Positions 1,827 to 41,263 of a stretch of DNA of 57,928 nt are shown here, piece after piece. Under the pieces are notes generated by a model. That model was not told where the DNA came from and did not search any database. It saw only the letters and a program-made list of their open reading frames with translations. A program made the position numbers and the translations under genes. Each line of letters opens with the position of its first letter. Positions within the stretch are counted from its first letter, which is position 1. Source of the DNA: a virus; IMG/VR virus record IMGVR_UViG_3300045996_001284, positions 1 to 57,928 of that record; one strand, given 5' to 3'.

Positions 1827-2066
1827 GTGTTGAACAAGCTGCCGCCGCTGAACCACATGGACGACGCCCTGCGCGACGCGGAAATCGTCCTCTTCCTGAA
1901 AACAGGCGAAACGGTGGCTGCCGAATGGGTCGAGCACTGGACCGCCTGGAGCCCGCAGGGTGGCCCCACCGACCGAGAGATGGGTATGGGCTACCAGTAC
2001 GACCGTCGCATCAAGCCCGACCAAGTGCTGGGCTGGTGGCCTATGCCGGAAGTTTCCCTAGCCTGA
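1827..2066 (+). CDS. Plus-strand small protein, DUF551-like ending
   Basis: A 79-residue protein lying alone on the plus strand inside the minus-strand lysis block. AAGGAG at 1818-1823 is best spaced for a TTG at 1830; GTG at 1827 and ATG at 1857 are alternatives. The middle reads like a small acidic domain (FLKTGETVAAEWVEHW) and the end (VLGWWPMPEVS) recalls the tryptophan-proline ending of DUF551-type phage proteins. Its 3' end overlaps the endolysin 3' end by 26 bases, tail to tail. Confidence 0.5.
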   Translation: MLNKLPPLNHMDDALRDAEIVLFLKTGETVAAEWVEHWTAWSPQGGPTDREMGMGYQYDRRIKPDQVLGWWPMPEVSLA

Positions 2067-2517
2067 GCATCTCCGCGTTCCTGACCGCGCGGGCCGGTGC
2101 CTGCTTGGCGTAGAGGCTGTCGAGCAGTTCCTCGGCGGCGGCGTCCCATGCCGAACATGCGAGAGCATCCCGCATGCGGACGAAGCCCCCCAGGCCAGTG
2201 GGACCAAGATTGTGAGCTAGATCGAGAATGACGACACGTCTAATGTCGTTCAGTTCCTGCCAGAGGGACTCGCCAAGATAGACTCTTGCAGCCTCTTCCG
2301 CGCCAGCAAGGTCATTGAGGAATAGGTAGTCTGCCTCGACCTTGGAGATGCCCTTCACATCTAACGCACGACCATACCCGACGGTCACATGGCCTTTGAT
2401 CTTGGAGCCGGAGACCACTGGCTTGCCGGTCCCGCAGTCATAACAAAAAAGTCTAAGCCCTTCATTTTCACGAATGAGCTTGGTCGCAAGAGCGATGAGG
2501 CTGCTCAAGTTCGTCAT
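2041..2517 (-). CDS. Endolysin, T4-type lysozyme (GH24)
   Basis: A 158-residue muramidase-like protein that should cleave the N-acetylmuramic acid/N-acetylglucosamine bond of peptidoglycan at the end of infection. The catalytic signature is near the N terminus: Glu19 in ENEGLRLFCYD, Asp27, then GHVTVGYGR with Thr45 and the G-Y-G turn. The rest follows the helical lobe of phage lysozymes (DLAHNLGPTGLGGF). There is no signal peptide or anchor, so export would depend on a holin. The first 50 bases of the gene overlap the end of the HNH nuclease gene upstream. Confidence 0.88.
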   Translation of the reverse strand: MTNLSSLIALATKLIRENEGLRLFCYDCGTGKPVVSGSKIKGHVTVGYGRALDVKGISKVEADYLFLNDLAGAEEAARVYLGESLWQELNDIRRVVILDLAHNLGPTGLGGFVRMRDALACSAWDAAAEELLDSLYAKQAPARAVRNAEMLRLGKLPA

Positions 2518-3097
2518 CCCTCAGATGTCTCCAGGCCAAGCCCCGTCTGATCGCGCTAACGTGCGAGAGGGACAACCCAAAGCGCCTAGCAGCAGCGCTG
2601 TGCGAGCCCTGGAAAGATCGTATCTCTCGGATCGTTGGTTCGGTTAGCTTGGCGCAACCGTGGCTCTCACCGTGGCTGTGCCGGCCCTTCCGGATTTTGT
2701 CGTCCATATTGTCTTTGGGAGTTCCAACGAAGAGATGCTCCGGCTTACAGCAAGATGGATTATCGCAGTGATGGCAGACTAGGAGGTCATCCGAAACTGG
2801 CCCGTACCGGTGCTGGTAAAACAGCCGATGCGTCTGCCAAATCTTCGCTGACCCACGCGGTCCTATCGAAATATGGCCGTAGCCCCTAACGCAAGCCCCC
2901 TGCCACTCCCAGCAACCAGTCACTCTATTTAGACGAAGTTGACGGAGTATCTTTCGATGTAACGGCGCGCTCCGAGATGCAGCCGATATGCTCGTACTGC
3001 CATGGCGCCATCGCCTCTTGTAGTGCGTGCCGCAGAGTCCCGTTGATTTCACGGACTTGCCGCACCCCTCAACCGAGCATAGGCTGCTCTCGGCCAT
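2468..3097 (-). CDS. HNH endonuclease with N-terminal zinc finger
   Basis: A 209-residue protein. Residues 7-25 hold a C-x4-C-x8-C-x2-H finger. Residues 62-140 are an HNH homing-type nuclease core: CWEWQG...GYGHI...HRLFYQHRYG, then LLVCHHCDNPSCCKPEHLFVGTPKDNMDDKIRKGR. The C-terminal part (LTEPTIREIRSF...AAARRFGLSLSHVSAIRRGLAWRH) is a small helix-turn-helix for DNA recognition. It overlaps the endolysin start by 50 bases, which suggests insertion of a mobile nuclease at the lysis gene. It probably nicks phage DNA at a related site. Confidence 0.85.
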   Translation of the reverse strand: MAESSLCSVEGCGKSVKSTGLCGTHYKRRWRHGSTSISAASRSAPLHRKILRQLRLNRVTGCWEWQGACVRGYGHISIGPRGSAKIWQTHRLFYQHRYGPVSDDLLVCHHCDNPSCCKPEHLFVGTPKDNMDDKIRKGRHSHGESHGCAKLTEPTIREIRSFQGSHSAAARRFGLSLSHVSAIRRGLAWRHLRDDELEQPHRSCDQAHS

Positions 3098-3124
3098 CTC
3101 GCTGTCTCCTCAGCGGTGTGGTCA

Positions 3125-3158
3125 GGGCTGGGCCGAGGTCGCCACCTCGTCTCAGCCC
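3125..3158 (-). other. Stem-loop between PLA2-like gene and HNH gene
   Basis: Nested arms GGGCTG/CAGCCC and GAGGT/ACCTC form a two-part stem in the 71-base gap. It may end transcription of the cassette upstream or separate the mobile HNH gene from it. No T-tract follows on the minus strand. Confidence 0.35.
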
Positions 3159-3168
3159 GCTTAGTCTA

Positions 3169-3555
3169 TCACTTCCGCAACCCGCCGAACAACCGCACTG
3201 CCGCCCAGTAGACCGAGCCAACCGCCGGCCATAGCGGCTTCAGCCAGGCATCCTCTACCTCGGCCACCGAGCAGATGCATTCGCGCAGGTCGTCGTCCGC
3301 CTTCTTCCGCTCGGCCTCGGTTTCCATGAAATGATAATCCATATCGTGGACCCGGCAGCAAGGCCGGACGATCTCCGGCGCCATGGTGCAGCCGTCCCAG
3401 TCGTCCACCTTGTACGGCTTGATCCACGGCTTGGCTGCGTGCCGTCGGTTGGCTTCGTCCTGAGCCCACGCCCGGAATGCCGCCTCATAAGAGGCGCTCG
3501 ACGCAGCATCCCGCATCGCCTTGCGGAAGGCGCGGAAGCGCTGGATGGCGGTCAT
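3169..3555 (-). CDS. Phospholipase A2-like protein
   Basis: A 128-residue protein whose ATG overlaps the stop of the caspase-like gene (ATGA). Residues 54-76 read DGCTMAPEIVRPCCRVHDMDYHF. This matches the calcium loop plus CC-x2-HD helix of phospholipase A2 folds, with His70-Asp71 as the expected catalytic pair. RKKADDDLREC at 83-93 matches the following active-site helix. Such domains occur in parvovirus capsids and some phages. A plausible role is hydrolysis of host membrane phospholipid, from the virion or at lysis. The basic N-terminal helix has no signal peptide. Confidence 0.7.
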   Translation of the reverse strand: MTAIQRFRAFRKAMRDAASSASYEAAFRAWAQDEANRRHAAKPWIKPYKVDDWDGCTMAPEIVRPCCRVHDMDYHFMETEAERKKADDDLRECICSVAEVEDAWLKPLWPAVGSVYWAAVRLFGGLRK

Positions 3556-4280
3556 GGGGTGAAGGGCTTCTCGCGAAGCCACGCCTCATCAATGGGGCCG
3601 AGCAGGTCGAGGTAGGGCTGCTGCTTCTTGGGCATATGGCGCTTCATGGTCCGATGAAACTGCCGCCAGTTGCCCTGAAACCTGCCCTCGTTCCACGTCC
3701 GTACGAGGGTGACGGTCATCAGGCCACCGGCACGGGTGTCCGCCGATGTAGCAGTATCCTCGCAACCACTCAGGGTGATGACGTTCGCCTGGATGGCCTT
3801 ACCGCGGTCCCGGTCCATGTGACGCAGCGCGTTCTGCACTGCCGTGCGGTCGCGACCCATCGTGGCACTGTGACAAGCATCGCACGTGAAGATCACCCGG
3901 ACGCCGGGCCTGAAACCGGCAAAACACTGGTTGATCTCGTCGTCGAGAAAGGTCGATCCCCATAGGCAGATAGCCTCGTCCAGCCCGTCCGGCTCGGGGT
4001 CGGAGCCGACTGCCGGGAGCTGGACACCATGCCCACTGAAACAGAGCATAAACGTGTCGCCGGACTGCATCCTGGCCGCCTGCTCTTCCAGCACGACCTT
4101 CAGCGCAGCGCCCGTCGCCTCTGCATCGCGGAAGGATTGCAGCACCTCGAAACCGGCGTCGCCCGCCAGCTTCATCATCAGGTCGCTGTCCTTCCAACAG
4201 CCGGACAGGCGACCATCCCAGCCATCATAGGCGACGGGATCGAGGGAGTTGAGGGCGAAGCTCGCCATGCGTGCGGTCAT
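3552..4280 (-). CDS. Caspase/metacaspase-like cysteine peptidase
   Basis: A 242-residue protein of the C14 caspase fold. FALNSLDPVAYDGWDGRLSGCWKD is the first strand plus the GCxxDA-like helix. LCFSGHGVQ holds the catalytic His84, and VIFTCDACHSATM the catalytic Cys136 in the DxCHS motif. AICLWG and LSGCEDTATSAD match later core strands of bacterial orthocaspases. Length fits a bare p20-like domain without extra modules. Start and stop both overlap neighbours by ATGA, so it is made together with the zinc protease and the PLA2-like protein. Substrate unknown. A host-targeting role or virion processing are both possible. Confidence 0.8.
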   Translation of the reverse strand: MTARMASFALNSLDPVAYDGWDGRLSGCWKDSDLMMKLAGDAGFEVLQSFRDAEATGAALKVVLEEQAARMQSGDTFMLCFSGHGVQLPAVGSDPEPDGLDEAICLWGSTFLDDEINQCFAGFRPGVRVIFTCDACHSATMGRDRTAVQNALRHMDRDRGKAIQANVITLSGCEDTATSADTRAGGLMTVTLVRTWNEGRFQGNWRQFHRTMKRHMPKKQQPYLDLLGPIDEAWLREKPFTP

Positions 4281-4828
4281 CGGTCGTCCCGTCGATATGC
4301 GGCCCTGAGTTCTGAGACATCGTAAGGCAACATCCGATCCGGATACTCTTCCCGGTCTGGCCAGTCGGTCGCCATGACGCTGATGTCGATGGAGTTCGCG
4401 GCATCCTCGGCGTGCAAGAGGCCCATCGCGTGGCCGACTTCGTGGAGGCCGTGGCAATAGACCCGTGTTCCGGGCGACCAATCCATATCCGCAAGCTTCG
4501 GATGGTGGAACACAGCCCCGCTCCGGTGCTGCCGCTTACCCGGTGAAAAACCGTACCCCCATCGCGCCACCACGCCCGACATGGCCACCCTGATCTGCGC
4601 GTCCTCCGGCTCGACCTCCTCGAACCGCAGCCCGATCTGGTCGCCTATGGTGGCGAGGATGAGCCGGTGCGCGTCCGCCACCCGCGCGGGCGCCGGCTCC
4701 CAGGAGTAGGTGAAGGGGCGGTCGTAGCCGTCGGCCCGCAGGTCGCCGCGCCACTCGAAGTCATCGGCTGGGAAGCCGAAGCGGATGACGCGACCGGGCC
4801 AGCGGCTGCCCGAGAAGAACTGACCCAT
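4277..4828 (-). CDS. Matrixin-like zinc metalloprotease
   Basis: A 183-residue metzincin. Residues 129-139 read HEVGHAMGLLH, the HExxHxxGxxH zinc site with Glu130 as general base, followed by SVMATDW with Met152 as the Met-turn. The N-terminal half has the matrixin strand order (GRVIRFGF..., FTYSW...). This start is preceded by a purine-rich AGGATC at good spacing; the longer frame upstream is not protein-like. No signal peptide is seen, so it acts inside the cell or from the virion. It is the first gene of the coupled trio with the caspase-like and PLA2-like genes. Confidence 0.78.
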   Translation of the reverse strand: MGQFFSGSRWPGRVIRFGFPADDFEWRGDLRADGYDRPFTYSWEPAPARVADAHRLILATIGDQIGLRFEEVEPEDAQIRVAMSGVVARWGYGFSPGKRQHRSGAVFHHPKLADMDWSPGTRVYCHGLHEVGHAMGLLHAEDAANSIDISVMATDWPDREEYPDRMLPYDVSELRAAYRRDDR

Positions 4829-4982
4829 TGCGATCCTGCGGCTGGTGGTGGATAGAGAGGGCAGCGCGCTCGCTGTGTGGTAGCACCACATCCGGACAAG
4901 AGCGCTTCGCCAAGATCGGGTAGCCGGAAGCTGAGATGTCTCCGGTCCGCGACGGTTGCCGGTATAGGCCCGGCCGAGCGCG

Positions 4983-6182
4983 CTACTCTCCCCGCAGTGC
5001 GATGCCACCAGCCTTCGCCGCGCCCTCGTAGCACTCCGCGAACCACAGGCCCGTCTCCATCTCCCGACCGCGGTCATCGACCGACGCCCTAGCCCACGAC
5101 TCCTCGGTCTTGGCGCGGATGCGCTGAAGCTGAGCCTTCACAGCCTGCTGCATCCGGAAGGCGCTGAGGTCAGGGCGCGGCACCGGCTGGTCGCGGCGCA
5201 GGCGGACCGCCTGGATGACCTTTACGTCCTCATCGCTCATGCCAGGGTCAACGATGCAGTCGGTCGCCGGAAACTTCTTCTGCTTGTCGTTGAAGGCGAA
5301 CCCAACCGTCACCGACTTAACGCGCGCGACGCTCACCTGATACGAACACTGCATATTGTGTCCGCCCTGAGGCTCATGCACCGCACCGTCCGTGCCGCCT
5401 GACCCTGGCTCCCAGCTCCCGAGCTTTCCGAACAAATTGCCGGAATACAGTATAACCCGACAGTCAGGGCAATCGCTGATGAGGTGAGGACCGCAGCGAG
5501 TGGTGACGTTCCAGCACTCAGGGCAGTTATAGACGAGGCTGCCGACACCGTGCCGTATGCGGACGGTGAACTTTCCGGTGCAGCCGATGATCGCGACGTG
5601 CGACGACTTGATCTCGAAGTCGTCGCTCAGCGTGTTGTTGCGAAAGTCCACGCCAGAGAACAGCAGTCCATAGTCGTCGTCGCTGGTCTGCCAGTTCTCG
5701 CCGGGGTAAAAGGCCATGGTGCCGTGCTCGCCGCCGCCACCACCTGTCGGCTTGCGCAGCTCGCTGACCTCACAGTCGTAGAAGATTGCCCCGTCGCCCT
5801 GCGGTCCCTTGAGAACGCAGCGCTCGGCGTCCGTGAACTTGGTCCGCCGGATGAGGACGTTCTTTTTTCCCCGCAGGCTCATGAACGGGTTGCCATTACC
5901 GCCAGTGCCGCCGCGGAAGACCTGATCCTCGATAACGTTGTTCCAGTCCGGCGGCGGTGGAAGCGGGTCAGGATGCGGGCCGGGAATGACCGGAGGTGGT
6001 GACGGGTCGGTATCAGAGGGCGGGACCGTGGCGACCTTTTTCACGGTCAGGTTGACCCGAACGTCGTACCTTCCCGGCTTCGCCGGGGCCTGCCCGGCTG
6101 GGATAGGCTCTCCAGGCTTGCACTTTCCAGCGCGGTTGATGCGCTTGACCGCGGCACGGTCCGTCGCCCTCTCGGCCGACAT
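4983..6182 (-). CDS. Right-handed beta-helix protein (spike-like)
   Basis: A 399-residue protein. The N-terminal 75 residues are basic, then Pro-rich (PPSDTDPSPPPVIPGPHPDPLPPPP), which looks like a linker. Residues 80-290 carry short repeating strands (NVLIRRTKFTD, AIFYDCEVSEL, LLFSGVDFRNNTL, HVAIIGCTGKF) typical of a pectate-lyase-type parallel beta-helix. Four CxxC-type cysteines in 220-255 may bind a metal. A strong AAAGGAG precedes the ATG. It may be a tail-associated depolymerase or adhesin; catalytic residues are not assignable. It is transcribed away from the exported gene on its right. Confidence 0.65.
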   Translation of the reverse strand: MSAERATDRAAVKRINRAGKCKPGEPIPAGQAPAKPGRYDVRVNLTVKKVATVPPSDTDPSPPPVIPGPHPDPLPPPPDWNNVIEDQVFRGGTGGNGNPFMSLRGKKNVLIRRTKFTDAERCVLKGPQGDGAIFYDCEVSELRKPTGGGGGEHGTMAFYPGENWQTSDDDYGLLFSGVDFRNNTLSDDFEIKSSHVAIIGCTGKFTVRIRHGVGSLVYNCPECWNVTTRCGPHLISDCPDCRVILYSGNLFGKLGSWEPGSGGTDGAVHEPQGGHNMQCSYQVSVARVKSVTVGFAFNDKQKKFPATDCIVDPGMSDEDVKVIQAVRLRRDQPVPRPDLSAFRMQQAVKAQLQRIRAKTEESWARASVDDRGREMETGLWFAECYEGAAKAGGIALRGE

Positions 6183-6276
6183 GACGTTCTCCTTTAATGA
6201 GTGGTTAGTGCGATTGGTCACTGCCGGACGCACCGACCGGCCCTACGTTCCCCTGCCTCAGAAGGAGGGGAATGCG

Positions 6277-6945
6277 ATGCGAATGATTGCTCTTGCCGCC
6301 ATGCTCGCGGCCATGCCGACGTTTGCAGAGGCAGCCAAGCTCTCGCTCGGGCAAGGCATAAACGACGACCTGCCCACAGTGGGTGCCATGGACCGGCACA
6401 CGGTCTACCTGCGCAAGGGGAGTGACTACGCCATCGAGTACCTGGCCGGCGACAGTGCCAAGACGGTCTGGACCATGCGCTCGCCGTCAGGCTCTGTGCT
6501 GAAAAGCTGGGAGGCCAGCAGCGCCAAGAGCTACGGGTTCGAGTTCCGCGCAGCGGTCACCGGCACCTATCGCATCGAGGGGCGAGCGGTGGAAGCGGGC
6601 ACGTCCTACCTGTTGCGCGCCGCCAAGGACTGCCGAAACAAGCTGCCGACCGGATGTTTCCTCAACGTCGGCGCCACCCAGAGCCGGCGAGCCGATTATG
6701 GCCATGACCTCGACTATATACGTCTAGCCGGGCTCACGGCAGGGAAGCTCTACACGGTGACCATGGCGACCGACGGTGGAGCGGCGACCCCCACTTTTCA
6801 GCTCGTTGACGCGCGGGGCACCGTGTTCTCTGAGGGCGATAACGCCACGTTCCGGCTGTACACGACGGTGCTGTTTCTGCGCTTCCGGCAGGACAACGAC
6901 CGCGGCGGCGGACCCTACAAGGTGACTTTGAAAAGTCAGCCTTGA
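6277..6945 (+). CDS. Exported two-domain PPC-like protein (plus-strand cargo gene)
   Basis: A 222-residue protein with a clear signal peptide (MRMIALAAMLAAMPTFAEAA, cut near residue 20). Two beta-sandwich repeats follow (about 28-120 and 130-222), each with the pattern D-x-Y-x-[IVL]-L-x-G-x-x-Y-x-[VI] and a closing G-x-Y strand, as in bacterial pre-peptidase C-terminal (PPC) domains. AAGGAGG lies 8 bases before the ATG. It is alone on the plus strand between fibre genes, with its own divergent upstream region, so it may be expressed in the host independently of the late operon and reach the periplasm. Confidence 0.68.
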   Translation: MRMIALAAMLAAMPTFAEAAKLSLGQGINDDLPTVGAMDRHTVYLRKGSDYAIEYLAGDSAKTVWTMRSPSGSVLKSWEASSAKSYGFEFRAAVTGTYRIEGRAVEAGTSYLLRAAKDCRNKLPTGCFLNVGATQSRRADYGHDLDYIRLAGLTAGKLYTVTMATDGGAATPTFQLVDARGTVFSEGDNATFRLYTTVLFLRFRQDNDRGGGPYKVTLKSQP

Positions 6946-7301
6946 TACCAGCCCGGCGACACGAAGACCGAAATAGTTGTGCTGGTCCCCGAAATCATCG
7001 CCATCGCCGCGGCTTTGTTGTTCGTCCCGGCGGCAGGAGCGGCATTCACCCCTTGCCCAGAAGCATTGGTTGTCAGGGTCATCCCGCGCCCGATCGCCCC
7101 TGACACCTCCAAGTTGCACTCACCGAGCACGCACACATCAACCGCGGCAGCGTCAACAGCGTCGTCAGGACCGATGTAGACGCCAAGTATTCGGTCAGTG
7201 ACCGCGCTGGATTGAATGACCTGGGTGTCGCTGGAGCCAAACTTCACCAGCCGATTCTTCGTGATGGCTCCCTCGGCGACCATTCGCTTAACCCACAGCA
7301 T
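6936..7301 (-). CDS. DUF2190-like decoration-fold protein in the spike module
   Basis: A 121-residue protein with beta-rich repeats: VDVCVLGECNLEVSGAIGRGMTLTTNASGQGVNAAP. This matches the DUF2190/capsid-decoration type domain and resembles the decoration protein beside the capsid gene in this window. Its start overlaps the stop of the spike gene (TAATG), so it is co-translated with the spike and may be a cap or trimerisation partner. Met7 is an alternative start. The last ten bases overlap the end of the opposite-strand exported gene. Confidence 0.55.
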   Translation of the reverse strand: MLWVKRMVAEGAITKNRLVKFGSSDTQVIQSSAVTDRILGVYIGPDDAVDAAAVDVCVLGECNLEVSGAIGRGMTLTTNASGQGVNAAPAAGTNNKAAAMAMISGTSTTISVFVSPGWYQG

Positions 7302-8809
7302 TACGACGCCCTCCTGTACCCGTTCAGCATCGGGTAGCTCGCGCCGGTAGAGATTTTTACGGCCTTGCCGGTCCGGTCAGTGCAGTTGGTCGCAGAAAAC
7401 GAACTGCCGTAGTTAAACCAGATGCTTTCGCCAGATACCGCGCCGTAAAGGTCCACCCCGCGGAAATGCACGTTAGTAGGCGGGCCAGTGGTGGAGCTTC
7501 CGACACTCGCCAGACGGCTCTTGGTCGCCCCGGATATGCCCAACGAACCGCCCTCAAAGACAATATCCGCGTAGGGATAGCCGGTATAGGTCTCGCTTGG
7601 AATAGTGACAACTTCCTGATTCTGCGTCCCACCATGTCGGAAGTTGCAGTTTCGTACGCGGACCTGGTAGCCCTTGATTTGGGCAAGGCCCAGCGCCGCG
7701 ACAAACCGCTCATCCAGAAAGCAGTCGATGTCATCCATTTGGATGTGGCAGGCTTGCTCCCCGATGTGGATCGGAAAGTTCTGCGTCTCGCCAGTCTGCA
7801 AAGTGGTAAGGCCATTAAAGCTGGCTTTGAAGTTACGCATCACCACATCAAAGCTATTGCACGATGGCTCAATAAGTCGTCCAGAATACTGCCCAAACCA
7901 GTTCTCGGCTACCACATGCGTCATCGTCGCGCCGACGAATCCATGATGGATGTCGAGCATGTGGATGTTGCGGAAGATGCTGTTATAGGCACATGCCTTT
8001 GACGAAAGCACCGCACGGCCCTTAAAGCCCATGTTCTCAATCACTACGTTTTCCACCGGAGTGATCGGCTGGCTCAAGTTGGTGCCTGCCATCTTGAAAA
8101 TCTTGGCGCCGCTGGCGATGGATCGAACGATATTGTCTGCCAGCCTGATCTGCCCCGATCCTGGGAGGGCCTGAACCTTGGTCTGCTGACCGTGGCTTCT
8201 CACGCCACTGACGTTGGCGGTGGTGCCGACATAGACCAGCTCGCCAACTGAAAAGTTGGCGGCCTCGCCCGAGGTCGTGCATGTAACGAGATTGGTCGGC
8301 GCAGTAATGGCGTTAAGCGCGTAGTCATCCAGGCTATCATAAAGAAGAGGGTGCATCAGACCAACCGACAAACATGCGTCCAAGTCAATCGTGGCGTTGG
8401 TCTTGTCATTGAACAGAACTGAAGAGGCGCCATCGCCGTACAGGTGCGTGTTTGAAAGGATGGGAAGCCACTGTTTGTAGAGGTAGATGCCCTCCGGCAG
8501 ATACATTGATCGGCAGACCAGGGCTGCATCAAGCAGTTTGGAGGTATTGTCGGCCGACCCGTCGCCGACCAAGCCGAACCGACGCTTGAGGTTGACGTTT
8601 TCGTCCTCTAGCCAGTCTTCGAGTGACCGAACAACGGCAGGGGCGGCTGGCAGGCCGAAGCTTACCGCTGCGCTGAGGTCGTCTAAGACATAGCTCTTAA
8701 TCTGGTCGGAGCTTGCCCGCCGGCTCGCTGCGCTCTGCGCGCACGGGAATGCCTCTGTGCCGTCGAGCGTTGAAGCCGCGGTCAGAGCCGAGGTTTTCGT
8801 ATTAGCCAT
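7301..8809 (-). CDS. Tailspike, pectate-lyase-type beta-helix
   Basis: A 502-residue protein. Residues 1-45 (TKTSALTAASTLDGTEAFPCAQSAASRRASSDQIKSYV) form the N-terminal segment common to tail fibre proteins of related phages. From residue 75, GLVGDGSADNTSKLLDAAL...MYLPEGIYLYK is the classical entry of a pectate-lyase-like parallel beta-helix, followed by many short strand repeats up to 470. Expected role: trimeric spike binding and perhaps cutting a surface polysaccharide. Catalytic residues cannot be assigned. It is coupled at both ends, to the GH5 gene upstream and the DUF2190-like gene downstream. Confidence 0.8.
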   Translation of the reverse strand: MANTKTSALTAASTLDGTEAFPCAQSAASRRASSDQIKSYVLDDLSAAVSFGLPAAPAVVRSLEDWLEDENVNLKRRFGLVGDGSADNTSKLLDAALVCRSMYLPEGIYLYKQWLPILSNTHLYGDGASSVLFNDKTNATIDLDACLSVGLMHPLLYDSLDDYALNAITAPTNLVTCTTSGEAANFSVGELVYVGTTANVSGVRSHGQQTKVQALPGSGQIRLADNIVRSIASGAKIFKMAGTNLSQPITPVENVVIENMGFKGRAVLSSKACAYNSIFRNIHMLDIHHGFVGATMTHVVAENWFGQYSGRLIEPSCNSFDVVMRNFKASFNGLTTLQTGETQNFPIHIGEQACHIQMDDIDCFLDERFVAALGLAQIKGYQVRVRNCNFRHGGTQNQEVVTIPSETYTGYPYADIVFEGGSLGISGATKSRLASVGSSTTGPPTNVHFRGVDLYGAVSGESIWFNYGSSFSATNCTDRTGKAVKISTGASYPMLNGYRRAS

Positions 8810-9909
8810 CAGGCTTCCAGCAGGAGCTTAGACGAATTGTCTTCGAGCAGCAGGAAGTCGCCGCTTTCGAGCAGCAGGGCCGACTCCGGCAGCGTGGACG
8901 TCCCGGTGTGTGCCTTGAACACCGTCACCTGCGGCTTCTCGCTGCCGGCAAGCGTCGGGATCGGATCGAGGTTGAGGAAGTAATCCTCGCCAGTCGAGGC
9001 ATTGTACCACCACGGACCACCAGCCCATCCCGTGAAGCCAATCCACACGTCGCGATTGGCGTCCATGAACTCCAGCTCGGCCTCAAGCTCGGCCAGGGCG
9101 GCGGAGCTTGTGCCAACGCCGGTCTCACCGAGAAAGAGCTTCTTATTGTTGCTGCGCGCCCAGCTTGTCGCCGCGCCCAATACGGTGGAGCCGGCGCCAG
9201 TAACCACGGTCGGACTGGTGCCGCTATAGTCGCTGTCGAGGTACTGGTGCAACTCGTAGGCATAGTTATTCTCGGGGTCCACCACTCCGAGCATCGTCGC
9301 CGCGTTTCCGCTGGAGACCCAACTATGAGCGCCACTCCAATACGATCCGGGCACGAGGCAAAGCTGTTTCGCGCCCTGCGCTCTGATGGCCGCGAGAGCC
9401 TGATTGTTTGCGATTAGCCAGTTTGCTGAGCTTATCCCGTTGGTGACGGTGGGCGCCATCGGCTCATTGCAAATGCCGAGGACGACGTTGTCCTTGTCCT
9501 TGATGTCGTCTGCGAGCTGGCTCCAGTATGAAACGAACAGGGCACGAGCAGTGCTGTCAGAAACGACCACGTGCTCGCCATCCAGTACCACCTGAGCATA
9601 ATGGTGGGGGTCCAGGATGCAGCGCCCGCCCTTGCCGGCGATGTAATCGACGAGGCCGAGCAAAATATCGCGGTCTTCATCGCGTGCAATTCGCTCGAAC
9701 AGAAAGGGCAGTCGGATGCAGTTGAAGCCTTTGCTGACTAGGTAATAATCAACCTCGGCCCTCGTCGGCCACGTATAGTCAGTGTCTCGCTTGCCAGGCA
9801 CTTTCGCCAAGTCGGTATGGCCGAACTCGGCGCCTGCGAGGTTTACGCCCGTAAGCCAGATTTGCGGTGACGTGGTGGGCGTTAGGCCGCGACTACTGCT
9901 CGCTATCAC
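8809..9909 (-). CDS. GH5-type cellulase-like tail enzyme
   Basis: About 366 residues from a GTG twelve bases after the previous stop; the exact start is uncertain because the frame is open further upstream. The fold is a glycoside hydrolase 5 TIM barrel: WLTGVNLAGAEFG, GFNCIRLPFLFERI, CILDPHHYAQ, VVLGICNEP with acid/base Glu149, YELHQYLD, and LFLGETGVG with nucleophile Glu262. The family cuts beta-1,4-glucans. The last 25 residues repeat LLLESGDFLLLEDNSSKLLLE, a short structural motif of phage tail proteins, so the enzyme is probably on the virion and digests cellulose-like exopolysaccharide. Confidence 0.8.
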   Translation of the reverse strand: MIASSSRGLTPTTSPQIWLTGVNLAGAEFGHTDLAKVPGKRDTDYTWPTRAEVDYYLVSKGFNCIRLPFLFERIARDEDRDILLGLVDYIAGKGGRCILDPHHYAQVVLDGEHVVVSDSTARALFVSYWSQLADDIKDKDNVVLGICNEPMAPTVTNGISSANWLIANNQALAAIRAQGAKQLCLVPGSYWSGAHSWVSSGNAATMLGVVDPENNYAYELHQYLDSDYSGTSPTVVTGAGSTVLGAATSWARSNNKKLFLGETGVGTSSAALAELEAELEFMDANRDVWIGFTGWAGGPWWYNASTGEDYFLNLDPIPTLAGSEKPQVTVFKAHTGTSTLPESALLLESGDFLLLEDNSSKLLLEA

Positions 9910-9920
9910 GCCTGCGAGGA

Positions 9921-10352
9921 TCAGGTCAGGTCTCCACCCAGCAACCACTCGTTGGTGCCGAGCTTGCGCAAGAAGCCCGTGCTGTATTGAGCGCGGAGTG
10001 ACATGCCGCGGTCCAGCGGCTTGTGGATAGTGACGCTCGTTCCAGGAGCTATGATGAAAGCCCCAGTGTTCTTCCGGCACAGGTTAATGACCGTGCCAAT
10101 CGGGAACGCGACAATGCCGTTCGGGCGCACGGTGCCGGTCACGGACGAGGTCGAGTTCGAGTCGACGAAGCAAAGCGGCGCGGCATCGGCGAGCCCGAAG
10201 TCAAACGCTCCGGTCTTGTTCCGCGTCGCTACCTGCGTGCCGAGATATTGCAAAAGGCTCTTCAGCAGCGCGTTAACAAGCGCCGTGTCGGGCCTCGGCG
10301 AGCCGCTGGCCGCGACCGCGGCGTCAATTTCCGTGGTGGTCGGGAGAGGCAT
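9921..10352 (-). CDS. Tail fibre protein with C-terminal beta domain
   Basis: A 143-residue protein. A helical N-terminal part (residues 1-45) precedes a beta domain, IVAFPIGTVINLCRKNTGAFIIAPGTSVTIHKPL...LRKLGTNEWLLGGDL. That pattern closes many phage tail fibre or receptor-binding proteins. It probably acts as a fibre tip or connector between the fibre upstream and the GH5 enzyme downstream. It sits four bases from the upstream fibre gene. Confidence 0.6.
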   Translation of the reverse strand: MPLPTTTEIDAAVAASGSPRPDTALVNALLKSLLQYLGTQVATRNKTGAFDFGLADAAPLCFVDSNSTSSVTGTVRPNGIVAFPIGTVINLCRKNTGAFIIAPGTSVTIHKPLDRGMSLRAQYSTGFLRKLGTNEWLLGGDLT

Positions 10353-37488: not shown

Positions 37489-37851
37489 CTAGTCCGCGGC
37501 CAGCCGCTCAGCCACCGCCTGGAGGTCTATGCCGAGCGTGCGGGCCAACTTCTGGAGCGCGAGGGCACATGCCTCCTCTTCGCGCCAGCACGTCGCATGC
37601 TTGCCGATCGCGATGCCCATCAGCGTGGGGCTGCAAGGCAGGCCGAGGAGCGCTGCCAGGATGTGGTGAGTTAGCTCGTGATCACGGGACATGCGCGCTG
37701 TGTCAGCGCCGTAGCCAAGCTCACGAGCCCGCGCCTTGTATCCATCCGTCGCCTGCGGGTACGCCGCAACCTCGCCCTCTGGGTAGACCGTAACGGTTAG
37801 CGGGTCATCGTGGAGGCGGATGTCTGCACCAGCCAGGTGGATGGTCTTCAC
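37489..37851 (-). CDS. Zincin-like protein with HExxH motif
   Basis: A 120-residue protein. RMSRDHELTHHILAALLGLP at residues 53-72 contains HELTHH, an HExxH zinc-binding helix, with WREEEACALALQK about 20 residues later as a possible third-ligand helix. N-terminal strands (TIHLAGADIRLHDDPLTVTVYPEGEVAAYP) resemble small bacterial zincins. Start overlaps the end of the methyltransferase gene (ATGA). Target unknown; could be antirestriction-type or regulatory protease. Confidence 0.58.
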   Translation of the reverse strand: MKTIHLAGADIRLHDDPLTVTVYPEGEVAAYPQATDGYKARARELGYGADTARMSRDHELTHHILAALLGLPCSPTLMGIAIGKHATCWREEEACALALQKLARTLGIDLQAVAERLAAD

Positions 37852-39662
37852 GCGGCAGCCGAGGTGAAGAGCGGGCCGACTTCACCGGGCTCTACAGCGG
37901 GCTTCTCAGCCCCGCCCAGGCGTCTCACGATGTCCTGGATGTATTCGGCCTCGCGCTCCACGAGCACAGCCTGGAAGCCCTCGGCGACCGCCGCAGCTCC
38001 AGTCGTGCCGCTGCCGGCAAACGGGTCGAGCACGGTGCCGCCGGGGGGCGTGACCATGCGGACGAGCCAGCGCATGAGGGAGAGGGGCTTTATGGTCGGA
38101 TGAGATGACCCTGCTCGATCAACCTTCCCCGCCTTCGCGCTGTAGTGGAACCGCAGCTCCTCGCGCGTGAGCGGGCAGGGCTGGAAGAAGCGGGCGGCTG
38201 AACCGCGGTCGTGATAGCTGCCCCAGCAAGTGCGGTCAGCAAACTCCCCGTAGACCGTCTGCGTCTTTGAGCTTGGGGCACTCGGACGGATGTTGCCGCC
38301 GGCCACCCGCTCCCCGAACAGGTCGAACGCCGCCAGCACTTCCTCGTCGCCTGAGTGGACTAGGTTGGCGGGCCAGCGGCCTACTGCGTTGTAGGTCGGC
38401 TGCTCATGGTCAGAGCGGAGCCCGCTCGCCTCGCCTTCTTTCCACGTCACGCGAGCGGAGCGCTGCCGCTGCACCTTGGCAGGATCGTACTCCTCGCCCA
38501 TAACAACCCTGCACCCGTCGATATTCAGCGCCCCCGTGCCCCAGCGCAGCACGTTTAAGTGGATGCTGGGCTCACTTAGAGATTTCCTCGCCAAGCAAAT
38601 CGGCTCATGGCTGGGTTTTAGGGCTCCCGAGAACCCACCGAACTCCGGCGAGAGTTTGCCGCATCTCGGGCAGCAGCCACCGTCTCGTAGTGCTCGTCCA
38701 TCCAGTGCTCCAGATGGCTCGCATAGACCTTCAGGTTGTCCAGCCGGTTGTCTGCCCGATCCAGATTGCGATGATGCACTTCCTCGCCCGGTTCCAGCGA
38801 GCGGCCTAGCATCTGCTCCGCTACCAAGATGTGTTCGCAGACGTAACCGTTCTTCCGCGCCCTCGGATGGTCCCGCTTCAGCACCATCACGTAGCCTTTG
38901 CCCGGCTCGACGTAGCGCCCGCCCTTCCAAGCCGGGTTGTTCTCTCCCGCTAGCTTCGGGTTCGGACCCCGTGGGCCATAGCTCCGATGGACTGTGTTCC
39001 GGCAAGCGCGGGAGCAGAACTTCCCCTCGTTCGTCGTCATAGTAGACGGGCGGCGGTAGATCGGCTTGTCGCAAAGGTCGCAAGTCGTGTTCGGCCGCCT
39101 GTTGGTCATCGCACTCACACCACTCAATGCCTGAGCGGTTTTTTAGCAGACCAACTTTTGCAAATCCAGTCCCATAAATCCACGCGAGCTGATCGCGGAC
39201 CTCGAACCCCGCATCCTCGATCGCGCACACCATGCGGTGGTAGGTGCGGGTGCCGCCGAACGCCACGAGATGGGCGCCGGGCTTGAGCACGCGGTAGACC
39301 TCGCGCGCCCACTCCTCGCACCAGTCTTGAAAGGCCCGCATCTGCCGGACGCGAGTGGCCTCGCGCGCCTCATCCCACTGTGGCGCGTCGCAGGTGCATG
39401 GCTTTGCACCCCGGCGCCGACCGCCACACGCTAGGCAGTTGGCATTGCGGGTGCCACCCCAGCCACCTGGCGTAGCGCGCTCACGATCGCCGAAGAGCTT
39501 TGACTTGCCGCCGAGCTGCCAGGGGGCATCCCACTCGCGCCCCATGAACTCCAGCCCATAAGGCGGGTCCGTCACCACCGCCTCGATGCTGTCCGAGTCG
39601 AGCGTCCGCAGCACGTCCAGGCAGTCGCCGTGGTGAAGCGTGGCCCCGCCGACCTGGATCAT
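37848..39662 (-). CDS. DNA methyltransferase (DPPY type) interrupted by HNH gene
   Basis: A 604-residue open frame. MIQVGGATLHHGDCLDVL and VVTDPPYGLEF (motif IV, residues 30-38) come first and VLDPFAGSGTTGAAA (motif I) near residue 545: the beta-class order of amino-methyltransferases, probably N6-adenine. Residues 182-342 have no methyltransferase similarity; they are the shadow of an HNH gene placed between GLLKNRSGIEW and GFSGALKPSHEPICLARKSL, normally near each other. No stop was introduced, so the protein may fold around the insert or be inactive. Confidence 0.78.
   Translation of the reverse strand: MIQVGGATLHHGDCLDVLRTLDSDSIEAVVTDPPYGLEFMGREWDAPWQLGGKSKLFGDRERATPGGWGGTRNANCLACGGRRRGAKPCTCDAPQWDEAREATRVRQMRAFQDWCEEWAREVYRVLKPGAHLVAFGGTRTYHRMVCAIEDAGFEVRDQLAWIYGTGFAKVGLLKNRSGIEWCECDDQQAAEHDLRPLRQADLPPPVYYDDERGEVLLPRLPEHSPSELWPTGSEPEASGREQPGLEGRALRRAGQRLRDGAEAGPSEGAEERLRLRTHLGSGADARPLAGTGRGSASSQSGSGRQPAGQPEGLCEPSGALDGRALRDGGCCPRCGKLSPEFGGFSGALKPSHEPICLARKSLSEPSIHLNVLRWGTGALNIDGCRVVMGEEYDPAKVQRQRSARVTWKEGEASGLRSDHEQPTYNAVGRWPANLVHSGDEEVLAAFDLFGERVAGGNIRPSAPSSKTQTVYGEFADRTCWGSYHDRGSAARFFQPCPLTREELRFHYSAKAGKVDRAGSSHPTIKPLSLMRWLVRMVTPPGGTVLDPFAGSGTTGAAAVAEGFQAVLVEREAEYIQDIVRRLGGAEKPAVEPGEVGPLFTSAAA
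38618..39109 (-). CDS. HNH endonuclease nested in methyltransferase gene
   Basis: A 163-residue HNH nuclease in another frame of the same strand. The N terminus has a zinc finger (CDLCDKPIYRR...FCSRACRN). The core is GGRYVEPGKGYVMVLKRDHPRARKNGYVCEHILVAEQMLGRSLEPGEEVHHRNLDRADNRLDNLKVYASHLEHWMDEH, with catalytic HH-x-N and downstream N/H residues. Its stop codon lies in the GALKP codons of the methyltransferase. A free-standing homing nuclease inserted at a conserved methyltransferase site. Confidence 0.82.
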   Translation of the reverse strand: MTNRRPNTTCDLCDKPIYRRPSTMTTNEGKFCSRACRNTVHRSYGPRGPNPKLAGENNPAWKGGRYVEPGKGYVMVLKRDHPRARKNGYVCEHILVAEQMLGRSLEPGEEVHHRNLDRADNRLDNLKVYASHLEHWMDEHYETVAAARDAANSRRSSVGSREP

Positions 39663-41161
39663 GCGACAGCCTCTGCGAACAGGGGCGCATCGCCCCGCAA
39701 CCGCTCGGCACCCATCGCGACGTAGGCGGGACTCATCTCGATGCCCACGCTGCGGCGCTGGAGACGCTCGGCCACGAGGAGCGTGGTGGAGGCCCCGGCG
39801 AACGGGTCGAGCACGGTTCCGCCGGCAGGACAGCCCGCCTTGATGCAACGCTCGGCCAGCTCGGGGGGGAAGGTTGCAAAGTGATCCGTAATTGTGGTAT
39901 CTTCCTCGCATGTACACGTGCGAGCGTTGCCATCAGCCGTTTGTCCCGAGGGATGCTTCGGCTGCTCACCAGAAGAGAAACCCTGCTCGGTTCTGCTCTC
40001 GGGACTGTGGCCGGACATGGCGCCGGAAGCAGGTTGAGGTTCACTGCCGCCAGTGTGGGCAGGTGATGCTGCGGCGACAGTCCCATGCTGCGAAGTCCCA
40101 GGAGCGAGGCCCGTTCTGCGGCTTTCGTTGCTATGCGGACTGGCAGGCGACGAACACTCGTGGAGCAGCGAACCCGAACTATCAGGCGTCCAGCCCTCGA
40201 CGAGGCTCGTCTGAATGGGAGCGGGCGCGTCTAGTGGCTCTGGATCGGGACAGGCATTGCTGCCAGGACTGCGGGCAGACTGAGAAGCGGCTTGTGGTCC
40301 ACCATATCCAGCCGTGGACGCCTCAGTCCGCCGCTCCCCATGCAGTGGGCAATCTGGTGACACTTTGCGACCGCTGCCACCGGCTGCGCCACGCAGCAGA
40401 TGAGCGCCGCTGAAAGGCTGGGTGGCGATCGTCCAGACGGAGCGGATGTTGCGGCCGGTCTGGGCGAGATGTTCGGCGGCTCGGTCGCCGAGCATCTTCA
40501 TGCCGTCGGGCCTGCCACTGTCGTAAGGGCGCTTGTTGCCAGGAGGGCTCACGCCAAGCGTTAGAGGCTCCTTCACCGCCTCCGCATCGAAGAAGTATCG
40601 CGGGCTCTTCGCGAGCAGGAACAGGTACTCATGCGCCTTGGTCGGGCGGTCGGTGACGCTCTCCGGCATCGGGTTGGGTTTCGCCCAAATGATGTCCGAG
40701 CGCAGCCACCAGCCGTCGTCTTGCAGCGCGAACGCCACGCGCCAGGGAACGCCGACGAGGTCTTTCGGCTTGAGGCCGTCCGTGGGCTTGCGCTGTCGAG
40801 CCTTACCGGCAAGCTCGGAATGCTTGCCCGTCCCGGTCCCGTATGCCGCGGCCCTACGAGCTAGGTCACCAACTCCGCAGTCATCCCGGCCGATTTTCCC
40901 GCCTGCGAAAGAGTCGCCCAGGTTCAGCCAGCACGTCCCATCCGCCCGCAGCACGCGCCGCACCTCGCGGAAGATCGCGACCAGCTTCTCGACGTACTCG
41001 CCGACCGTGGGCTCGAGGCCGAGTTGCCCGGCCACGCCGTAGTCGCGCAGGCCCCAATAGGGCGGGCTGGTGACGCAGCAGTGGACGCTGTCGGCCGGCA
41101 GCCCCACCAGCACCTCGCGGCAGTCGCCGTGCAGCAGCGTGGCCCCGCCGACCTGGATCAT
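39659..41161 (-). CDS. DNA methyltransferase (TSPPYW type) interrupted by antisense HNH gene
   Basis: A 500-residue open frame. TLLHGDCREVL and CVTSPPYWGLRDYG (motif IV) precede VLDPFAGASTTLLVA (motif I), beta-class; SPPYW favours N4-cytosine methylation. Conserved FSGAH (residues 250-254) and HFATFPPELAERCIKAGCPAGG (427 onward) are normally continuous; 172 codons between them are the reverse complement of an HNH gene. The frame is preserved because the insert is a multiple of three without stops. Activity is uncertain. It overlaps the next methyltransferase start by four bases. Confidence 0.78.
   Translation of the reverse strand: MIQVGGATLLHGDCREVLVGLPADSVHCCVTSPPYWGLRDYGVAGQLGLEPTVGEYVEKLVAIFREVRRVLRADGTCWLNLGDSFAGGKIGRDDCGVGDLARRAAAYGTGTGKHSELAGKARQRKPTDGLKPKDLVGVPWRVAFALQDDGWWLRSDIIWAKPNPMPESVTDRPTKAHEYLFLLAKSPRYFFDAEAVKEPLTLGVSPPGNKRPYDSGRPDGMKMLGDRAAEHLAQTGRNIRSVWTIATQPFSGAHLLRGAAGGSGRKVSPDCPLHGERRTEASTAGYGGPQAASQSARSPGSNACPDPEPLDAPAPIQTSLVEGWTPDSSGSLLHECSSPASPHSNESRRTGLAPGTSQHGTVAAASPAHTGGSEPQPASGAMSGHSPESRTEQGFSSGEQPKHPSGQTADGNARTCTCEEDTTITDHFATFPPELAERCIKAGCPAGGTVLDPFAGASTTLLVAERLQRRSVGIEMSPAYVAMGAERLRGDAPLFAEAVA
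39910..40413 (+). CDS. HNH endonuclease antisense within methyltransferase gene
   Basis: A 167-residue protein on the opposite strand. Two N-terminal zinc knuckles (CERCHQPF...FCSRDCGRTW and CRQCGQVM...FCGFRCYADW) precede the HNH core: WERARLVALDRDRHCCQDCGQTEKRLVVHHIQPW...GNLVTLCDRCHRLRH, with HH and N-H residues in place. ATG chosen; a TTG six codons upstream is possible. Both ends fall at the junction of the interrupted methyltransferase motif, marking a precise insertion. Confidence 0.82.
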   Translation: MYTCERCHQPFVPRDASAAHQKRNPARFCSRDCGRTWRRKQVEVHCRQCGQVMLRRQSHAAKSQERGPFCGFRCYADWQATNTRGAANPNYQASSPRRGSSEWERARLVALDRDRHCCQDCGQTEKRLVVHHIQPWTPQSAAPHAVGNLVTLCDRCHRLRHAADERR

Positions 41162-41263
41162 CCCGGAACTCATCTCTCGTATTGGGGTGGTTTCGTGATG
41201 CAGTTCTGAGACGCTGGCGTGCTTGGCCGCGTCCGCTCAGTGAGAGACTATCAAAAACGGTCG

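Follow-up and report, generated by a model that had tools for sequence, protein, structure and literature searches.

An overlapping metzincin, caspase, and phospholipase A2-like gene trio with a putative lysis-linked role in a tailed phage

Results

Three overlapping hydrolase genes in one phage genome

The 57,928-base genome of a tailed phage (IMGVR_UViG_3300045996_001284, 63% GC; this whole stretch is hereafter referred to as the window) contains three intact minus-strand open reading frames (ORFs) that encode, head to tail, a metzincin, a caspase-fold protease, and a phospholipase A2 (PLA2)-like protein. We tentatively interpret this trio as a late, translationally coupled, lysis-linked degradative cassette of three hydrolases, a reading to which we give somewhat less than an even chance. 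A preliminary description of the same DNA had reported three genes joined by ATGA overlaps and carrying the motifs HEVGHAMGLLH, SGHG/DACHS, and CCRVHD. Both junctions are present on the minus strand (metzincin stop/caspase start, 4277–4280; caspase stop/PLA2-like start, 3552–3555), all frames are intact, and each motif reads as claimed in the translated ORFs. The coupling and the enzyme identities proposed there (matrixin-like, caspase, and PLA2) are supported as well, with the qualification that the metzincin and the PLA2-like protein score below the Pfam gathering thresholds and draw their support from other comparisons.

The catalytic residues are intact in all three enzymes, none of which has a predicted signal peptide or membrane segment. 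Short gene overlaps are common in phages. A weak Shine-Dalgarno-like AGGA was found at the metzincin start and no obvious one at the caspase or PLA2-like starts, a pattern that would fit translational coupling of the two downstream genes. Codon adaptation (0.68–0.75) and GC3 (0.79–0.83) of the trio equal those of the core structural genes, suggesting that the trio is a long-term resident of this genome; the HNH endonuclease and lysozyme genes outside the trio (codon adaptation of 0.49 and 0.54, respectively) are both unlike the core genes. Recent foreign insertion of the trio was ruled out by this core-like codon usage, and chance motifs or damaged frames were ruled out by the caspase E-values (PF00656 and 3BIJ, see below), the intact ORFs, and the codon usage.

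Late position between depolymerase-type and lysis genes

The window encodes a major capsid protein, portal, terminase, tape measure, central tail fibre J-like protein, DnaB-type helicase, and DNA methyltransferases, including two neighbouring, overlapping methyltransferase genes that match the same PHROG (37848–41173, minus). The closest capsid relatives belong to Erythrobacter phages (36% identity), and no close relative was found. The late genes are encoded on the minus strand in the order tail, depolymerase-type genes, the gene at 4983–6182, the trio, HNH endonuclease, lysozyme, and small membrane proteins. From this position, late expression of the trio is likely, and the placement between spike and lysis genes proposed in the preliminary description was borne out: depolymerase- or polysaccharide-lyase-type genes (chondroitinase-B-like, GH5, and pectate-lyase-like) lie upstream, and the HNH, lysozyme, and small membrane protein genes lie downstream.

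The upstream gene previously read as a spike (4983–6182, minus; an upstream GTG extends the ORF to 6233) shares the codon usage of the trio and had no Pfam match at E ≤ 1. On the other side, an HNH endonuclease gene of divergent codon usage (2468–3097, minus) separates the trio from the lysozyme gene, whose start it overlaps, and is probably a later, mobile insertion. The next genes encode a lysozyme-type endolysin (2041–2517, minus) and small membrane proteins; one small membrane protein weakly resembling the Thivi_2564 family (1605–1826, minus) is a candidate holin. A search of 1900–7400 revealed neither promoter-like nor terminator-like sites. The late region also holds a sole plus-strand gene (6274–6945). 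It has spike-type genes on both sides, and its product begins like a signal peptide and weakly matches the PPC domain. The GH5 cellulase-family protein (8809–10080, minus; 140.9 bits) lies among the tail/spike genes.

A serralysin-type catalytic domain

The first gene of the trio (4277–4828, minus; 183 aa) is assigned to an isolated M10 (serralysin-type) catalytic domain. The metzincin zinc motif HEVGHAMGLLH (HExxHxxGxxH; residues 129–139, positions 4444–4412) is followed by the Met-turn SVM. Profile scores stayed under the cut-offs for both Pfam PF00413 (18.5 bits, cut-off 24) and the NCBIfam serralysin model (12.2 bits, cut-off 500). Serralysin-type matches in 385 alphaproteobacterial genomes reached E = 3e-10 at best, and serralysin catalytic domains align from residue 6 through the zinc motif, the Met-turn, and the C-terminal helix. 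These sequence comparisons support the serralysin-type M10 assignment. The propeptide, RTX repeats, and type I secretion end are absent from the 183-aa protein. A single-sequence scan of IMG/VR with the metzincin gave no matches and its relatives came through alignments, while the single-sequence AlphaFold model had a confidence too low for the fold to be read (pLDDT 32.5).

A GSU0716-like caspase without the self-blocking segment

The second gene (3552–4280, minus; 242 aa) encodes a caspase-fold protease (C14, GSU0716-like orthocaspase), an identity that we regard as certain from its sequence. The product matched Pfam Peptidase_C14 (PF00656) with 69.6 bits (cut-off 21.4, E = 4e-19), and its best solved relative is GSU0716 (PDB 3BIJ; E = 2.7e-43, ~39% identity over the aligned length). 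His84 of SGHG (4031–4029) and Cys136 of DACHS (3875–3873) are invariant in the alignment of relatives, in which acidic motifs are conserved too. Relatives were found in taxa including Deltaproteobacteria, Nitrospirae, Planctomycetes, Streptomyces, and archaea, as well as on three additional virus contigs (labelled L053, L054, and L078); they came from alignment-based searches, single-sequence scans of IMG/VR and genome contigs having given no matches. A known anti-phage defence system was ruled out, as the sole similarity reported by PADLOC was a weak match to its caspase model (23 bits). In another virus contig (L027, IMGVR_UViG_3300037264_003676), the caspase gene (4831–6795) is split by an intein (PF14890) that contains HNH_3 and sits immediately after the catalytic SGHG.

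A published analysis of 3BIJ describes a peptide of the structure itself, IRYRA, that blocks the catalytic cleft (PMC3881575). We found that this peptide corresponds to an internal segment, EIRYRAMP (GSU0716 residues 161–168). In an alignment-based census from which one copy with an interrupted frame (L052) was excluded, 34 of the 36 caspase relatives, including L053, L054, and L078, have the motif [RK]x[MA]P in the stretch from the catalytic Cys to SGC. The phage protein has no such motif, and its Cys-to-SGC linker spans 35 residues compared with 58–85 in the plug-bearing relatives. The two other plug-less copies are from cyanobacterial plasmids of Annamia and Synechocystis (the latter gene is damaged) and do not group with the phage caspase in the tree. 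Plug loss by common descent with these copies is not supported by this tree, in which the phage branch is long and poorly placed. We infer from the structure paper (PMC3881575) that the segment is inhibitory, and predict that its loss unlatches the phage caspase, which would then be active without self-cleavage. The plug-less protein could also be inactive.

A phospholipase A2-like protein

The third gene (3169–3555, minus) encodes a 128-aa protein matching PHROG 6098, with His70 (3348–3346), Asp71, Tyr74, and Asp87 as its catalytic set. The Pfam score is under the cut-off (PF09056, 14.3 bits; cut-off 29.4), and C56, C66, C67, H70, D71, Y74, D87, and C93 are invariant in an alignment of 14 phage sequences. 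The AlphaFold model (pLDDT 83.6, pTM 0.73) had as its top PDB matches the Tuber PLA2 TbSP1 (4AUP; probability 1.00, E = 0.014) and a Streptomyces PLA2 (1FAZ; probability 0.93, E = 0.47), and as its top matches among viral models phage proteins named phospholipase A2. These structural E-values are modest and leave the predicted PLA2 fold with good support but short of proof. The protein has extra N-terminal helices (~48 residues) that the other phage relatives lack. Among these relatives, the genes of Mannheimia phages and several prophages follow tail-fibre genes, that of Pseudomonas phage Epa5 stands between terminase and portal, and a further record (L021) has its copy close to an Rz-like gene.

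Genomic surroundings of related caspases

We further compared the surroundings of GSU0716-like caspases by eye at about a dozen loci, a comparison that has no statistical background. Among the virus contigs, L054 has the caspase gene overlapping one for an M15 peptidase; in L078, DUF1353, SNase-like, and caspase genes follow in order with 4-base overlaps, and a trypsin-like gene occurs in the same region; in L053, the caspase gene follows the portal gene with defence-like genes nearby and no lysis gene beside it. Fusion proteins occur as well, joining the caspase to a GDSL lipase plus an M15 peptidase in Kandeliimicrobium (L050), to a GDSL lipase on a Rhizobium leguminosarum plasmid (L095), and to a peptidoglycan-binding domain in Deinococcus (L096). 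Bacterial neighbours include papain-type C1, subtilase S8, and C25 peptidases, GH46 chitosanase, L,D-transpeptidase, and a nuclease, and one bacterial relative adjoins a TIR-TPR gene. We read in these loci a recurring theme, in which GSU0716-like caspases neighbour envelope hydrolases and other peptidases or are fused to them; L053 does not fit it. Separately, one further locus (L085) looks related to the caspase, GDSL lipase, and M15 fusion of L050. The R. leguminosarum plasmid region (L095/L097, 10352–17292) holds the GDSL-caspase fusion, chitosanase, murein L,D-transpeptidase, DUF3616, and C25 peptidase genes, a run that resembles a multi-hydrolase cluster.

Occurrence of the trio elsewhere

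Each of the three families is present singly in other phages. No second trio was found in the phages, IMG/VR, and plasmids searched, nor when virus records with the other trio families were searched for M10, C14, and PHROG 6098. The function and unity of the cassette are thus read from one genome and its overlaps. Nearest to the trio was a 485-kb uncultured phage (L007/L025/L055) where ~16 kb separates a caspase gene from a gene for a lipoprotein-like M10 metzincin. A 240-kb virus record (L077, L081, and L082) contains three M10 metzincin genes, two of which form a tandem pair and have lipoprotein-like starts. The open-licence papers searched included none on phage caspases or on this trio, which, together with the phage, IMG/VR, and plasmid searches, is consistent with the earlier statement that no phage system with these three genes was known to have been described. 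All three enzyme classes are known, and the PLA2 by itself is not new, phage PLA2-like proteins having been annotated already.

Discussion

Phage lysis is usually explained by holins, endolysins, and spanins that open the membrane and the cell wall; a cassette that broke down proteins and lipids of the host would extend this scheme by one step. The preliminary description had suggested virion-borne enzymes, programmed lysis, or superinfection killing. In the lysis-linked reading, the three enzymes would be made in the cytosol alongside the late proteins, without export signals, and would reach their substrates during cell failure. The metzincin and the caspase would cut host proteins and the PLA2 would cut membrane lipids, helping the cell to disintegrate and the progeny to be released. 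Both sPLA2 and serralysins require calcium. Metacaspases are typically activated by calcium (PMC7206013, PMC9622860). By analogy, calcium may control these three proteins too. With no plug on the caspase and a usual calcium requirement in each of the three enzyme classes, control may come from late timing combined with calcium influx: cytosolic calcium would be low before lysis, and its entry at membrane failure would serve as a shared switch.

We counted several observations in support of this role: the identity and intactness of the three enzymes, the plug loss, the position near the lysozyme gene, the association of this caspase type with hydrolases in L054, L078, L050, L095, L096, and the bacterial neighbours, the placement of PLA2-like genes in other phages (behind tail-fibre genes or close to an Rz-like gene), the calcium dependence of metacaspases, and the codon usage indicating long residence. 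Counted against it were the occurrence of the trio in a single genome with overlaps of a kind common in phages, the L053 context, where the gene is not near a lysis gene, and the chance that a plug-less caspase on a long branch is inactive. A more specific version, which we hold to be doubtful, is that some phages use GSU0716-type caspases in lysis-phase enzyme sets, and that here removal of the plug has unlatched the caspase, which coupled with the metzincin and the PLA2 forms a self-digestion module triggered by membrane failure beside the holin and the endolysin. If true, this would provide a function for a widespread bacterial caspase type that repeatedly lies beside envelope hydrolases.

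Alternatively, the trio proteins might be carried on the phage tail, as the spikes and depolymerase-type proteins are, with the envelope or the incoming cell as their target. The trio does follow tail and depolymerase-type genes (GH5, pectate-lyase-like, and chondroitinase-like), and phage PLA2-like genes often come after tail-fibre genes. However, no virion-binding domain is recognisable in these proteins, the metzincin begins at its catalytic domain, and the caspase does not lie beside tail spikes in other phages. We consider virion carriage unlikely, and gene context favours the lysis-linked role over it.

Rather less probable is that the three genes are unrelated cargo, gained separately, packed together by genome compaction, and serving different roles. 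The absence of the trio from every other genome searched, the occurrence of its families alone in other phages, and the frequency of short overlaps in phages would all be expected of such cargo, whereas the uniform codon usage over the three genes, their strict coupling, and the similar overlapping hydrolase groups containing the caspase in L054 and L078 argue for a unit.

A role in conflict or counter-defence, in which the caspase and the metzincin would cut proteins of the host or of rival phages and the PLA2 would damage the cell to exclude superinfecting phages, appears improbable. Caspase and PLA2 domains do serve as toxins in polymorphic toxins (PMC3482391), one bacterial caspase relative adjoins a TIR-TPR gene, and the phage copy L053 lies near defence-like genes; yet the PADLOC similarity is weak (23 bits), the cassette includes no sensor or partner gene, and its position is late. 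Finally, it is highly improbable that the enzymes are released at lysis to target eukaryotic predators or the surrounding matrix in place of the host cell: metzincins and PLA2 are frequent among secreted effectors and matrix-degrading enzyme genes precede the cassette, but the proteins bear no secretion signal and no evidence of a eukaryotic target was found.

Compared with known systems, the phage metzincin shares the catalytic-domain start, HExxHxxGxxH, and Met-turn of the serralysins (M10B) of Alphaproteobacteria, but it has no propeptide, RTX repeats, type I secretion end, or Tyr after the Met-turn. The caspase has the fold, His-Cys pair, and acidic DxE/DDE motifs of GSU0716-like orthocaspases, but is ~36–40 residues shorter between the catalytic Cys and SGC, the missing stretch including the RYRxMP segment. 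The PLA2-like protein resembles PHROG 6098 and group XIII/XIV PLA2 (4AUP and 1FAZ) in its catalytic His-Asp-Tyr-Asp set and predicted helical core, and differs in its extra N-terminal helices and its coupling to two proteases. Polymorphic toxins likewise use the caspase and PLA2 classes as effectors (Tox-Caspase and Tox-PLA2; PMC3482391), whereas the trio consists of stand-alone genes without toxin trafficking domains. A parallel in proposed role is phage WO, in which a patatin-based putative lytic cassette includes a phospholipase as a proposed part of the lysis module (PMC9203015), as we propose for the phage described here. However, patatin has an unrelated phospholipase fold, and the phage WO cassette contains no caspase, metzincin, or peptidoglycan endolysin, whereas the present phage encodes a lysozyme.
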